35,062 bases of DNA from Candidatus Cryptobacteroides merdipullorum (lineage in GTDB: Bacteria; Bacteroidota; Bacteroidia; Bacteroidales; UBA932): contig DVLC01000133.1 of the NCBI GenBank assembly GCA_018715685.1, positions 1-35,062 of the forward strand. The letters run 5' to 3'. Shown here one piece after another: positions 7,414 through 27,871 of this stretch; position 1 is the stretch's first letter; every line of letters starts with the position of its first letter. A program made the translations under genes and the position numbers. The notes beneath the pieces are model-generated. The model was not told where the DNA came from. It saw only the letters and a list, made by a program, of their open reading frames with translations, and ran no database searches.

Positions 7414-8508
7414 ATGAAGACGGAAATACGCCTTGCCGGTATCGCCGCCGCGCTCGTCTTCCTTAATGTCAGCGAAGCCGAGGCCCAGACCTACAGCAAT
7501 CCGGTACTGCGCAGAGACTGTCCCGACCCGACTCTGCTTGACGACAGGGCACGGTCGGGGTATTTTTATGTCTACTCGACCCAGAGCCAGCGGGACGGCA
7601 ATGCTACGGCCAGCAGGGACGCCTCGGCCGACAGGCCTGAAGACATAATCAACCTGCCCATATACCGTTCGCGGAATCTCATGGACTGGGAATTCGCCGC
7701 CGACGGCTTTGCCGTGGACAGGCCAGACTGGGTCAGGGACACTAGAATCTGGGCTCCGGACATCAACTATGTCGACGGTCACTACCAGCTGTACTACGCT
7801 CTCGGCGCCTGGGCGCAGATTTTCCGCGAAGGCAGCGGAGTGGCTGTGTCGGATTCGCCCGAAGGGCCGTTCCGGGATTTAGGAGAAGTGGTCAGTTTCA
7901 AGTCTACCGGAGTGACCAATTCAATAGACCCGGCCCTGTTCATCGATGACGACGGGAAGAAATATCTGTTCTGGGGCAGCCTCGGTCCGGGCTCGGGAAT
8001 ATGGGCCGTACAGCTTGACGACGACGGGCTGAAGCCTGCTCCCGGAGCGAAGAGGAAGAGGCTGAGCGCAAGCAACATGGAAGCGGCCTATGTGTTCAAG
8101 CGGGACGGCTGGTATTATCTTTTCGCGTCGAAAGGCTCGTGCTGCAATCACGAAAAGAGCAGCTACCGGCTGGTCGTGGCGCGCTCCAGAAACATTTTCG
8201 GCCCATATAAAGGACCGGACGGACAGAAGATGACCTCCGGAAGTTTCGACAATGTGATCATGGAAGGCGGCGGGCAGTTCATAGGAACCGGCCATTGCTC
8301 ACAGATAGTGACGGACGATGCCGGACAGCAGTGGATGGCATACCACAGCTACTGGAACGGAAACGGGTACATCAGCCGCTGCCTCTGCATCGACCGCATA
8401 GACTGGACCGAGGACGGATGGCCCTGGTTTCCCGACGCATCCGGCAGCCCCTCAGTCTTCTCCGTCGCCAGCCCCGGCACGGACGTCCCGGTTCCTGCTT
8501 TCAATTGA
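7414..8508 (+). CDS. Glycoside hydrolase family 43 (arabinanase/arabinosidase-like), secreted
   Basis: Signal peptide; YSNPVLRRDCPDPTLL, WAPDINYVDGHYQLYYA, SIDPALFIDDDGKKYLFWGS. Confidence 0.88.
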   Translation: MKTEIRLAGIAAALVFLNVSEAEAQTYSNPVLRRDCPDPTLLDDRARSGYFYVYSTQSQRDGNATASRDASADRPEDIINLPIYRSRNLMDWEFAADGFAVDRPDWVRDTRIWAPDINYVDGHYQLYYALGAWAQIFREGSGVAVSDSPEGPFRDLGEVVSFKSTGVTNSIDPALFIDDDGKKYLFWGSLGPGSGIWAVQLDDDGLKPAPGAKRKRLSASNMEAAYVFKRDGWYYLFASKGSCCNHEKSSYRLVVARSRNIFGPYKGPDGQKMTSGSFDNVIMEGGGQFIGTGHCSQIVTDDAGQQWMAYHSYWNGNGYISRCLCIDRIDWTEDGWPWFPDASGSPSVFSVASPGTDVPVPAFN

Positions 8509-8622: not shown

Positions 8623-8691
8623 TGCGAAAGCAACGCCCCCGGGGCAGGCTCTTCCAAAATTATCGCCTGCCCCGGGGGCATTGCTTTCGCA
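8623..8691. repeat. Long inverted repeat (27-bp arms, one C/A mismatch, 15-nt loop), member 1 of candidate family
   Basis: TGCGAAAGCAACGCCCCCGGGGCAGGC / GCCTGCCCCGGGGGCATTGCTTTCGCA read directly; convergent intergenic. Confidence 0.95.
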
Positions 8692-8705: not shown

Positions 8706-9350
8706 CTACTTCACACGAGTCAGCTCGAAACCGATCTGCATGCCGTCATACTGATCCAGCAGCGAGGTCAGAGCGCCAAGCTTGGAGTCACCGACCGAAG
8801 AAGTGATCTTGGAGATGAACTCCAGAAGCTTGTCAGCGTTGAAGAGCAGCTGCATGGTGCTCGCGCCCACTGAAACATTGGTCTTCAGTGCAATTCCCTT
8901 GAGCTTCTCGTTCTTGCCATAATCAAGCTCAAGAGTCTTCTCCTGCTGGGAAAAAGTATACTGTCCGGGGAACTTCGCCTGGTTGAACGAGGTTGAGAAG
9001 GTTCCGTCCTCGTTGAAGGTGTAGCTGAACAGCCCCTCCTTGATTCCGACCTTGGCGAGATACTCGTTGAGAGTGTCCTCCACCTTGCCTACAGCCAGTT
9101 CTGATGCGGCGTTCATAAGCATGTTGTCGCCGGTGAACTTCACGGCGGAGCCGGAGAAAGTCCAGTTTCCCTCGATATTCTTGGGGATCACGTCAAGCTG
9201 GTCCACGACCGACTCAACTACACTCTTGACTCCGCCGTTGCTGAAAAGCTCCTTGAGCGACTGGGCGTTCGCAGACACGGTGCCGAGAAGCAGGGCGGCG
9301 GAAAGAACAACAAAAATCTTTTTTATTTTTTTAATATTAAGGTAATACAC
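8706..9350 (-). CDS. DUF4923-family secreted protein
   Basis: Signal peptide; IEGNWTFSGSAVKFTGDNMLMNAASELAVGKVEDTLNEYLAKVGI. Confidence 0.8.
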   Translation of the reverse strand: MYYLNIKKIKKIFVVLSAALLLGTVSANAQSLKELFSNGGVKSVVESVVDQLDVIPKNIEGNWTFSGSAVKFTGDNMLMNAASELAVGKVEDTLNEYLAKVGIKEGLFSYTFNEDGTFSTSFNQAKFPGQYTFSQQEKTLELDYGKNEKLKGIALKTNVSVGASTMQLLFNADKLLEFISKITSSVGDSKLGALTSLLDQYDGMQIGFELTRVK

Positions 9351-16924: not shown

Positions 16925-18118
16925 TCAGCAGCGGCCCGGGTACGATTCGAGAGCCATGGAGAGTATGGTCATGCACCTTTCCAGATCCTCACGGCACAGC
17001 ACATAGGCCATTCTGACCTCCTGCTTCCCCTCACCCTCTTCGGTGTAGAAGCCGGAACCGGGGGCCATCATTATCGTCTCGCCGTCCAGATTGAAATCCC
17101 GGAGGCACCACAGGCAGAATTTCTCCGCGTCGTCCACAGGAAGGCGGACCATGGTGTAGAAAGCGCCCATGGGCATGGGAGCGAACACGCCGGGAATATG
17201 GTTCAGAGCGTCGATCATATAGTTACGCCTGGCGAGATATTCGTCATAGACACCCTTCATGTACTCTTTTCCCACATCCATAGAGGCTTCCGCGACTATC
17301 TGGCCGAGCAGCGGCGGTGACAGACGGGCCTGGCAGAACTTCATCACTGCCTCATGCACCTTTCTGTTCTTCGTGCAGAGGCATCCTATCCTGACGCCGC
17401 ATTCCGAATACCTCTTGGAAACGGAGTCGAAGAGCACCACGTTCTCCTCGATTCCTTCAAGGTGCATAGCCGACACATACGGCCTGCCGGTGTAGATGAA
17501 CTCCCGGTAGACCTCGTCGCTGAACAGGAAAAGATCGTGTTTCCTGACGATGTCGCGGAACCGCTCCATCTCTTCGCGGGTGTAGAGGTAGCCGGTGGGA
17601 TTGTTGGGGTTGCAAATCAATATCGCCTTGGTTCTCGGCGTGATACATTTCTCGAACTCCTCTACGGAGGGCAGCCTGAAGCCGTCCTCGATATGCGTCC
17701 TGACACTGCGGATGACAGCCCCCACCGAGATGGCGAACGCCATGTAGTTTGCGTAGAAGGGGTCGGTGACAATGACTTCGTCACCGGGACTCAGGCAGGC
17801 CAGAAAAGCGAAAAGCACCGCCTCGGAACCGCCCGCCGTGATTATTATGTCTTCAGGCGAAAGGTAGATGCCGTACTGCGCATAATAGCCGACCATCTTG
17901 GTGCGCAGCGAAAGACAGCCGTCGGAAGGGCTGTATTCGAGTATTTCCCTGTCGACATGCTTAAGGGCATCGAGTCCGCAGCGCGGGGTTCTGATGTCGG
18001 GCTGCCCTATGTTGAGATGGTAGACCTTGATTCCGTTGCGCTTCGCCTCGTCGGCATACGGGGCTAGCTTGCGTATGGGTGAAAACGGCATCGCGGCCGC
18101 TCTTTGAGATATATCCAT
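16925..18118 (-). CDS. PLP-dependent aminotransferase class I/II (copy A)
   Basis: HLNIGQPDI, NPNNPTGYLYTREEM, SDEVYREF, SVSKRYSECGVRIG; start moved to MDISQRA. Confidence 0.9.
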   Translation of the reverse strand: MDISQRAAAMPFSPIRKLAPYADEAKRNGIKVYHLNIGQPDIRTPRCGLDALKHVDREILEYSPSDGCLSLRTKMVGYYAQYGIYLSPEDIIITAGGSEAVLFAFLACLSPGDEVIVTDPFYANYMAFAISVGAVIRSVRTHIEDGFRLPSVEEFEKCITPRTKAILICNPNNPTGYLYTREEMERFRDIVRKHDLFLFSDEVYREFIYTGRPYVSAMHLEGIEENVVLFDSVSKRYSECGVRIGCLCTKNRKVHEAVMKFCQARLSPPLLGQIVAEASMDVGKEYMKGVYDEYLARRNYMIDALNHIPGVFAPMPMGAFYTMVRLPVDDAEKFCLWCLRDFNLDGETIMMAPGSGFYTEEGEGKQEVRMAYVLCREDLERCMTILSMALESYPGRC

Positions 18119-18126
18119 AAAAGATA

Positions 18127-18166
18127 AACTGTAGAATTCCGGATAAAGATACGAAATTCTACAGTT
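18127..18166. promoter_or_regulatory. Palindrome overlapping a putative aminotransferase promoter
   Basis: AACTGTAGAATT (18127-18138)/AATTCTACAGTT (18155-18166); loop holds minus-strand TATCTTTA (18144-18151), close to TAnnTTTG. Confidence 0.55.
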
Positions 18167-18175
18167 CATTGTCAA

Positions 18176-24991: not shown

Positions 24992-26629
24992 ATGAAGCCG
25001 GTTTTCAGCACTCTTACGGAACTCTACGATTTCGCGACTTCTGCATACGCGAGAAGAACCGCGTCGGAATTCGCGAGCGGGGGCCAGAAATACACATATT
25101 CCCAGTTCAAGGACTGTTGCGACAACATTTCGAGAATACTTTCCAATTTCGGCATAGGCGCGAGCGACAAGGTCGCGATTCTCTCGGAGAACATGCCCAA
25201 CTGGAGCATAGCCTTCTTCGCCGTCACGGCCTTCGGGCGCATCGCCGTGCCCATGCTGCCGGATCTCTCTCACGACGAAGTGGAGAACATCCTCGCCCAC
25301 TCCGAGGCCAAGGCTATCTTCATCTCGAAGAAGCAGCTCGGCAAACTCAGCGAGGAGACGGTGAAGCGTCTCAATCTGGTCATCGACATTGAAGATTTCA
25401 GTTTCATCAAGGCCATAGGCGAGTCCTACACCTGTGACGGCAAGGTAAGCGTGCCGACTCCGCTCGACATCGCGGCCATACTCTATACCTCAGGCACCAC
25501 GGGCAACGCCAAGGGCGTGATGCTCAGCCACCGCAACTTCTGCTTCAACGTGCTGAGCTCATGGTACAGTTTCAGGATAAGCAGGAAGGACGTGTTCCTG
25601 TCCATACTCCCGATGGCGCACACCTACGAGCTGAGCATAGGCATGCTCTATCCCTTCGCCATGGGAGCGAGGGTCGCGTATCTCCAGAAGGTGCCCACGC
25701 CTACGATTCTGCTCGCCACGCTGAAGCAGATACGGCCCACGGCCATGCTTTCCGTGCCCCTGATCATCGAGAAGATCTACAAGAGCAGCGTCATACCGGC
25801 CATCAACGGCAGCAAGTTCCTGCAGTTCCTGCAGAAGGACATGGCCTGGCTGCTCTATATGCTGATAGGCATAAAACTCCGCAAGACCTTCGGCGGACGG
25901 CTGAAATTCTTCGGAATAGGAGGAGCGAAGCTCGACACGACGGTCGAAGCCTTCCTCAAGAAGACGGGCTTCCCCTATGCCATAGGCTACGGGCTCACGG
26001 AGACGGCCCCGCTGATCTGCGCCGCTCCCCCGCGGAAGACCGCCGTCGGATCGACAGGCAGGGCGGTTCCCGGAATACAGGTAAGGCTCAACGACATAAA
26101 CCCCGAGACAGGCGAAGGGGAAATCACCGTCAAAGGCCCCAACGTGATGCTCGGCTACTACAAGGACTACGACAGGACGCTGTCCGTGCTGAGCCAGGAC
26201 GGATGGTTCCGCACCGGAGACCTTGCATGCTGCGACAGAAAAGGGCGCTATTTCGTGAGAGGACGGCTCGGAAGCCTGATTGTCGGCGCTTCCGGAGAGA
26301 ACATCTACCCCGAAGAGATAGAAAACGTTATCAACAGCATGGACGGCATCTCCGAATCGCTGGTGATAGAGCGGGACGGCCAGCTCGTGGCGCTCGTGCA
26401 GTTCAACGACAATGTGATTGACTGGCAGCTCGAAGGCAAGGACAAGTTCATCGAAGATCTTGAGGCCCGCAAGAAGGCCATTCTCGAATTCGTGAACGCG
26501 AGGGTCAGCAAGTTCATGAAGATCCGCTCGGTCGAAGTCCAGAAGGAGCCGTTCACCAAGACTGCCACCCACAAGATCAAGCGTTTCCTCTATACCGGCA
26601 AGGCCGCAGAAAAGGAACAGGCTAAATAA
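24992..26629 (+). CDS. AMP-dependent synthetase / long-chain acyl-CoA ligase
   Basis: AILYTSGTTGNAKGVMLSH, GYGLTETAPLICAAP, DGWFRTGDLA. Confidence 0.93.
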   Translation: MKPVFSTLTELYDFATSAYARRTASEFASGGQKYTYSQFKDCCDNISRILSNFGIGASDKVAILSENMPNWSIAFFAVTAFGRIAVPMLPDLSHDEVENILAHSEAKAIFISKKQLGKLSEETVKRLNLVIDIEDFSFIKAIGESYTCDGKVSVPTPLDIAAILYTSGTTGNAKGVMLSHRNFCFNVLSSWYSFRISRKDVFLSILPMAHTYELSIGMLYPFAMGARVAYLQKVPTPTILLATLKQIRPTAMLSVPLIIEKIYKSSVIPAINGSKFLQFLQKDMAWLLYMLIGIKLRKTFGGRLKFFGIGGAKLDTTVEAFLKKTGFPYAIGYGLTETAPLICAAPPRKTAVGSTGRAVPGIQVRLNDINPETGEGEITVKGPNVMLGYYKDYDRTLSVLSQDGWFRTGDLACCDRKGRYFVRGRLGSLIVGASGENIYPEEIENVINSMDGISESLVIERDGQLVALVQFNDNVIDWQLEGKDKFIEDLEARKKAILEFVNARVSKFMKIRSVEVQKEPFTKTATHKIKRFLYTGKAAEKEQAK

Positions 26630-26642
26630 TCAGATAAACCAA

Positions 26643-26712
26643 CGGACAGACAATCCCCCTGCGGCAGGCTTTTCCCAAATCTTTCGCCTGCCGCAGGGGG
26701 ATTGTCTGTCCG
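26643..26712. repeat. Long perfect inverted repeat (27-bp arms, 16-nt loop), member 2 of candidate family
   Basis: CGGACAGACAATCCCCCTGCGGCAGGC / GCCTGCCGCAGGGGGATTGTCTGTCCG read directly; convergent intergenic. Confidence 0.97.
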
Positions 26713-26749: not shown

Positions 26750-26824
26750 GCTGCGGAGGGCGCTTGCTGCGCGAGAGGCTCTCCGCTCTCAATCGCCTCG
26801 AGAGCGGCAAGCGCCTGCCGCAGC
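26750..26824. repeat. Second long hairpin in the same convergent intergenic region
   Basis: GCTGCGG/CCGCAGC, GCGCTTGC/GCAAGCGC, GCTCTC/GAGAGC nested arms. Confidence 0.8.
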
Positions 26825-26842: not shown

Positions 26843-27871
26843 CTATCGCAGATCGGCGAGCTCGTAGATCAGGCGTTCGGTCTTCTCCCAGCCGAGACAG
26901 GGATCGGTGATCGAACAGCCGTATACGCCGTCGCCGGCCTTCTGGCTGCCGTCCTCGATATACGACTCAATCATCAGACCCTTGACGAGCCTGAAGATAT
27001 CCGGATTGTGACGCGTGCTGTGAAGCACCTCCTTGGCTATGCGAATCTGCTCCAGGTATTTCTTGCCGGAATTCGAGTGATTCGTGTCCACGATCACGGC
27101 AGGGTTCTGAAGACCCGCCGTAGCATAAAGCTCGTTCAGGAGCTCCAGATCCTCGTAATGATAGTTGGGGTGCGAATTGCCGCGGGAGTCCACATATCCG
27201 CGCAGAATCGCGTGCGAGAGCGGATTCCCCTTGCTCTCGACCTCCCAGTTGCGGTAGATGAAGGTGTGCGGGCTCTGGGCGGCCTTGAGCGCGTTCATCA
27301 TTACTGACAGATTGCCTCCGGTAGGATTCTTCATCCCGACAGGCACGTCTATGCCGCTCGCGGTCAGTCTGTGCTGCTGGTTTTCCACCGAACGCGCGCC
27401 GACAGCCACATACGACAGCAGGTCCGACAGATATTTGTGGTTCTCAGGATAGAGCATCTCGTCGGCGCAGGAGAAACCTGTCTCGTTGAGAGCCCTCATG
27501 TGCATCTTCCTTATCGCTATGAGCCCCCGGAGCATGTCGGACGCGGCCTGCGGGTCGGGCTGGTGCAGCATGCCCTTGTAGCCCGCGCCGGTAGTGCGAG
27601 GCTTGTTCGTATATATGCGCGGGACTATCACTATCTTGTCGGCAACCTTCTCCTGCACCCCGCGCAGACGCGAGATATAGTCGATCACTGCGTCCTCGCG
27701 GTCGGCGGAGCACGGGCCGATCACCAGCAGAAGCCTGTCGCTCTCGCCGGTGAATATCTCGCGTATGTTCTCGTCATTTCTCTTCTTCGCCAGCTCCCCC
27801 TCTTCGGAAATCGGATACATCTCCTTTATTTCCTGCGGGATGATGAGCTTGCGCTTGAAAACCATGTTCAT
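26843..27871 (-). CDS. aroF: 3-deoxy-7-phosphoheptulonate synthase (class I)
   Basis: VIGPCSADRE, PRIYTNKPRTTGAGYKG, PVGMKNPTGGNLSVM, IVDTNHSNSGKK. Confidence 0.93.
   Translation of the reverse strand: MNMVFKRKLIIPQEIKEMYPISEEGELAKKRNDENIREIFTGESDRLLLVIGPCSADREDAVIDYISRLRGVQEKVADKIVIVPRIYTNKPRTTGAGYKGMLHQPDPQAASDMLRGLIAIRKMHMRALNETGFSCADEMLYPENHKYLSDLLSYVAVGARSVENQQHRLTASGIDVPVGMKNPTGGNLSVMMNALKAAQSPHTFIYRNWEVESKGNPLSHAILRGYVDSRGNSHPNYHYEDLELLNELYATAGLQNPAVIVDTNHSNSGKKYLEQIRIAKEVLHSTRHNPDIFRLVKGLMIESYIEDGSQKAGDGVYGCSITDPCLGWEKTERLIYELADLR

Follow-up and report, generated by a model that had tools for sequence, protein, structure and literature searches.

The two long hairpins in the 35,062-nucleotide stretch of DNA analysed here (the window) belong to a previously uncatalogued dispersed family, denoted family A, which is present in about 40–65 copies per expanded species. 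Our overall reading, to which we assign a probability of roughly two in three, is that the family is REP-like and confined to one genus, that it consists of extragenic hairpins of about 70 bp dispersed over the genome, and that their arms are kept perfect mainly by template switching. The relevant features of the window, with matches to two covariance models of the family (R1 and the broader R2), are as follows.

7414–8508, + strand: GH43 glycoside hydrolase, left neighbour of element 2 (Pfam PF04616, E 7.9e-61)
8623–8649 and 8665–8691, + strand: arms of element 2, an inverted repeat with the loop TCTTCCAAAATTATC (R1 match, E 6.4e-13)
8706–9350, − strand: DUF4923 lipocalin-like protein, right neighbour of element 2 (Pfam PF16270, E 5e-51)
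24992–26629, + strand: AMP-binding enzyme of the acyl-CoA ligase type (Pfam PF00501, E 5.9e-81)
26643–26669, + strand: left arm of element 1, 100% complementary to 26686–26712 (R2 match, E 2.6e-14)
26670–26685, + strand: loop of element 1, TTTTCCCAAATCTTTC; the orthologous site in the sister species G354 has the exact opposite orientation, GAAAGATTTGGGAAAA
26686–26712, + strand: right arm of element 1, complementary to the left arm
26754–26820, + strand: third, imperfect family member, an inverted repeat in the same convergent spacer as element 1 (R1 match, E 2.4e-5)
26843–27871, − strand: DAHP synthase, convergent neighbour of element 1 and the third member (Pfam PF00793, E 2.8e-46)

Element 1 (26643–26712) starts 13 nt after the stop codon of the AMP-binding enzyme and consists of 27-nt arms, 100% complementary, around a 16-nt loop; comparison of the arms agreed exactly with the perfect 27-bp-stem palindrome described in the initial annotation. 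Its fold has an energy of −62.6 kcal/mol, compared to −26.4 kcal/mol for shuffled sequences (z −10.4). Element 2 (8623–8691) has 27-nt arms that are 96% complementary and a 15-nt loop, and lies 14 nt from the stop codon of the DUF4923 protein. When the arms of the two elements were compared by eye, the earlier count held, with 10 differences in the left arm, 9 of them matched in the right arm, and a C opposite an A at position 8634. The placement of both elements between convergent genes (AMP-binding enzyme and DAHP synthase for element 1, GH43 and DUF4923 for element 2) was likewise borne out. The arms of the third member (26750–26779 and 26795–26824) are 80% complementary, and this element has a counterpart at the same place in G354; element 2 is represented there, at the orthologous site (L040), by a decayed counterpart with indels. 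Two other inverted repeats were seen in the window: a near-perfect one of 24 bp with a 4-nt loop at 58–109, immediately before and overlapping the start of an RNase P RNA match (97–401), and one with arms of 21 nt (86%) around a 4-nt loop at 18124–18169, which falls within the start of the ORF at 16925–18175 if its TTG start is real.

A genome-wide search with covariance model R1 returned 54 matches at about 40 distinct loci in the source genome (G000; a 2.0-Mb assembly, 83% complete, in which copies were read from separate sequence stretches only), which establishes the family as real and refutes the possibility, raised in the initial annotation, that the two hairpins have no further copies. 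The apex motif GGCAGGCTTTTCC, with one mismatch allowed, matched 19 times per strand in the genome and 3 times for the reversed control, and in most cases the matches were long hairpins. The sister species (G354; BRZ_GE__bin89, an uncultured Bacteroidales, 89% complete) yielded 98 R1 matches with both strands counted, corresponding to about 60 copies by covariance model, and 65 elements were identified there by a purpose-written finder. An expansion comparable to that in G000 was seen in just one of 400 genomes of the genus, that of G354. Model R2 was constructed from 33 elements drawn from several species. Of the 120 other species of the genus that were sampled, 16 had 1–9 copies by this model, and the family was found in none of 148 genomes of the class outside the genus (E 1e-4 with strict filters in both searches). 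Distant members keep the TTTTCCC loop, and their apex may differ (e.g. AAGCC).

The long stems are not a product of chance, because stems with at least 22 of 24 positions paired occur at 53 places in the G354 genome and at none in an order-1 Markov genome of equal size and composition. A pattern scan of a genome collection recovered 12 stretches, 5 of which were true long hairpins, all from BRZ_GE__bin89; in the other 7 the stem did not exceed 8 bp, and these were chance matches. The scan of viral contigs gave 6 single matches, none with a long stem, and a phage link was dropped on these grounds. A search of Rfam produced no match at the gathering score; the below-threshold matches were mainly to animal miRNA models and lay far under the gathering scores.

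Across 84 elements, the pairing frequency stays above 0.8 up to base pair 26 and falls to background (about 0.25) by base pair 31. Stems are typically 27–30 bp long (overall range 21–34 bp, mode 27), the apex reads GGSAGGC, and the loop, of 7–17 nt overall and 15–16 nt in most elements, begins with T[T/A]TTCCC. Outside GGSAGGC the stem has only a weak consensus, and paralogous stems typically have just 11–14 of 26 bases in common; conservation is therefore far stronger in the apex and loop than in the stem. Because they remain constant while the stems diverge, the apex and loop would be the part of the element under sequence selection or recognition. Copying of the stem from the surrounding sequence whenever an element inserts was considered and rejected, because a weak common pattern runs through the stems of different copies and species, and because the stem is preserved between orthologues. 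At one locus (L045; G000 C41:18094–18314, G354 C5:54680–54905), a family A element forms part of a tandem array whose 78-bp unit is present three times in G000. A family A subgroup with the stem GCGGCGGGAAGCCGTTGATGCRA, found in G000 at L037, L039, L042, L046, L051 and L065, adjoins spacer repeats of 200–450 bp that are common to these loci.

Although the stem sequence is different at every locus, pairing is retained. In 17 elements from the apex-motif search that could be aligned unforced, and from which model R1 was derived, 22 of the 26 stem pairs had changed on both sides, with covariation far above that of shuffled and slid controls. In the alignment behind R2, 23 of 26 pairs had changed on both sides, and 96.4% of the cells over the 26 pairs were paired, compared with 59% after shuffling and about 42% after sliding. 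Compensated change is thus massive, and the many uncompensated stem changes that the initial annotation had named as the contrary outcome did not occur.

The distribution of the elements relative to genes, obtained for G000 and G354 with our own simple hexamer-based gene caller, is far from even. In G354, an element is present in 29 of 110 eligible convergent spacers and in 19 of 410 others (p 4e-10, odds ratio 7.4), so that the suspected bias toward convergent spacers was confirmed genome-wide, and none of 58 elements lies inside a gene. Stop codons are within 30 nt of 22 of 47 elements, compared to 12.7 expected from random placement in the same spacers. For elements with a single gene end nearby, the TTTTCC loop strand is antisense to the adjacent gene in a ratio of 19:4 in G354 and 10:3 in G000, two sets that share orthologues; element 1 of the window is an exception, its G354 orthologue having the common orientation. 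A replication-strand control revealed no clear relation between loop strand and local GC skew (21/16/11/10). The 19:4 bias argues for a non-random orientation and also suggests selection at the RNA level. It hints, by way of suggestion, at a role at 3' ends: with copies just after stop codons and the GGGAAAA loop strand in the sense direction, many elements may plausibly serve as mRNA 3'-end hairpins.

The earlier proposal of a bidirectional 3'-end element would fit the position and loop-strand bias, but the elements have no terminator T-tract. Intrinsic, possibly bidirectional, transcription terminators would indeed be expected as G+C-rich hairpins where convergent genes end, but six or more T within the 9 nt that follow the stem were seen in only 2 of 58 elements, and a terminator scan calls none at 26643. 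Loops of 15–16 nt and stems of 27–30 bp are atypical for terminators, and most sister species lack the hairpins, making this explanation extremely improbable.

Another alternative is RNA-level selection alone, in which the hairpins are mRNA 3'-end elements, such as exonuclease barriers or RNase III sites, and their stems change by ordinary two-step compensatory substitution. The sites just after stop codons, the enrichment in convergent spacers, the loop-strand bias in both genomes and the conserved apex and loop all agree with it. The changes between orthologues do not. Over 11 locus pairs comprising 273 stem positions, 236 positions were unchanged, 14 had changed in both arms and were still paired, and 23 were mismatched in one species. 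If the arms changed independently, about 0.2 paired changes would be expected (our arithmetic from the 23 mismatch cells of 273), against the 14 observed, a count that comes from 11 locus pairs and could include some cases of two selected steps. Transversions make up half of these changes (7 of 14), and a transversion has no route by way of a wobble (G.U) intermediate. Tolerance at the RNA level would also favour G.U mismatches, but among the 84 elements these do not exceed A.C mismatches (47 vs 46), and on the strand of the nearest gene the numbers are 22 and 20, with no wobble bias. Moreover, selection for pairing leaves the loop inversions described below unexplained, and most species of the genus have almost no copies. 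We consider RNA-level selection as the sole explanation unlikely.

Comparison of orthologous loci in G000 and G354, with about 80–95% identity around the compared loci, uncovered a second type of change. Among the 15 loci readable on both sides, the loop has the same orientation in 10 and is inverted in 5 (the window locus at 26643, L044, L048, L055 and L056), with the flanks and arms in place and the loop reverse-complemented. For element 1, the identity of its loop to that of the G354 orthologue is 0.38 in the direct orientation and 1.00 (16 of 16 bases) when inverted, with flanks conserved on both sides. Two other species of the genus (G023 and G128) are nearly identical across about 480 bp around a shared element, save for an inverted loop. 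At the level of deposited assemblies, these comparisons demonstrate that loops are inverted between some orthologous copies.

All these orientations come from metagenome assemblies (bins), in which a palindrome with 27-bp arms is ambiguous to an assembler at k below the arm length, the loop being traversable either way, and the observed flip rate would also fit about 17% mis-oriented loops per genome, a plausible rate. The family would then be real and its loop inversions an artefact of assembly. However, the loop strand is non-random relative to genes, 10 of the 15 locus pairs are not inverted, and the paired arm changes provide independent evidence of copying from arm to arm. In addition, the contig names of G354 (NODE_...) point to a SPAdes-type assembly, presumably with the usual larger k exceeding the arm length. 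An artefactual origin of the inversions appears quite unlikely.

Both types of change have precedents in template switching, which in rRNA hairpins generates paired arm changes and loop inversion (PMC8794818) and in yeast inverted repeats leads to arm homogenisation and spacer inversion (PMC8604942). A replication template switch between the arms would copy a mutation of one arm into the other, and a switch crossing the loop would invert it. Because paired changes of any type and loop inversion are its predictions, we infer that template switching at the DNA level is the main keeper of the perfect stems. Something also selects on the element, given that the apex and loop are conserved, the stem length is fixed and the loop strand is biased; since this bias suggests selection at the RNA level, selection and template switching probably both act. 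The initial annotation had offered selection or a copying mechanism that preserves the fold, and copying is the better option of the two, in view of the loop inversions and paired transversions, with selection probably acting as well.

With regard to spread, two elements of G354 located 2 kb apart (C12:30007 and C12:32083) have 24 of 26 stem bases in common and unrelated flanks, and similar paralogues with matching stems and unrelated flanks were found in G000, suggesting that a unit of about 70 bp moved or was copied as a block. Its spread as a discrete block would date to the ancestor that G000 and G354 share and would have depended on a mobiliser; we infer mobility solely from these paralogues. 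In the comparison of G000 with G354, we found no clean empty site with a target duplication, and the differences between them look like deletions that left remnants behind (L044, L052) or, at L268, a messy spacer. The reading of species differences as fresh insertions is accordingly unsupported, the readable cases being losses with remnants.

An unusual form of a REP/REPIN family mobilised by RAYT would account for high-copy extragenic palindromes with a patchy distribution among species, some of them in opposed pairs within one spacer (G354 C21, C27, C11 and C6). Against such membership (the initial annotation had proposed a REP/REPIN-like element), no Y1_Tnp/RAYT gene was found in either expanded genome (G000, 83% complete; G354, 89% complete), and the tags are absent from the foot of the hairpin, with GTAG in 2 of 58 elements (1.9 expected) and CGTC in 3 of 58 (4.4 expected). 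REPs are defined by stems of 5–13 bp that have a sequence in common, and fall into GTAG and CGTC families (PMC3733652), whereas the stems of family A are 27–30 bp long and not conserved in sequence. The assignment to RAYT-mobilised REPs was therefore abandoned as very unlikely.

A second hairpin family, family B, has stems of 16–32 bp, a CAGTA apex and a 20-nt loop, TAGGGYYGYGCGGTGGTTCY, that is conserved. It is expanded in G199 (about 47 loop matches) and also occurs in G354, at the following sites.

G354 C2:119775–119854, C2:119966–120043, C3:81496–81571, C4:63369–63420 and C19:14673–14756: family B

Perhaps, although we are doubtful, the genus carries several loop-defined selfish or regulatory hairpin families (A and B), in which a mobiliser would read the apex and loop only, and template switching would re-perfect stems and flip loops. 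If so, the identity of such families would reside in the loop, leaving the stem free to change.

Compensated changes are usually taken as proof of a selected RNA structure. The tens of hairpins that act as replicates in the two sister species suggest that DNA copying between arms, of which loop inversion would be an independent fingerprint, can account for a large part of the covariation signal, and this calls for caution in covariation-based RNA discovery. As a natural system, family A also lends itself to testing by what means long, perfect stems are maintained, a long-standing question, and it gives Bacteroidales a REP-like class that lacks the usual transposase. We conclude that the most fitting description of family A is a new REP-like family, with a long stem and a conserved loop, that is not a RAYT REP and is maintained largely by template switching.

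Among known systems, intrinsic terminators resemble family A in being G+C-rich hairpins after stop codons, but family A differs in having no T-tract, a long loop, a stem much longer than usual and a presence in few species. The invertible DNA switches of Bacteroidales undergo site-specific inversion between inverted repeats, and the DNA is found both ways, as in family A. In family A, however, only 7–17 bp invert and the arms are the element itself; to our knowledge, 7–17 bp is too short for any known invertase, and the family A loop holds no promoter that we know of. REP, BIME and REPIN elements with RAYT (PMC3733652) likewise comprise tens of short extragenic palindromes that stay clear of genes and promoters, lie preferentially at convergent or unidirectional gene ends and at times form opposed pairs; unlike in these elements, the loop and apex of family A are conserved and its stem is variable, with no excess of G.T in the stems. 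Template-switch hairpins (PMC8794818, PMC8604942 and Ripley-type quasipalindrome mutation) share with family A the instantaneous paired arm changes and the inversion of the loop or spacer. The published template-switch cases concern individual hairpins of rRNA or inverted repeats in coding sequence whose spacers are small, whereas family A is a dispersed bacterial repeat, with long stems and a 16-nt loop, present at many loci.
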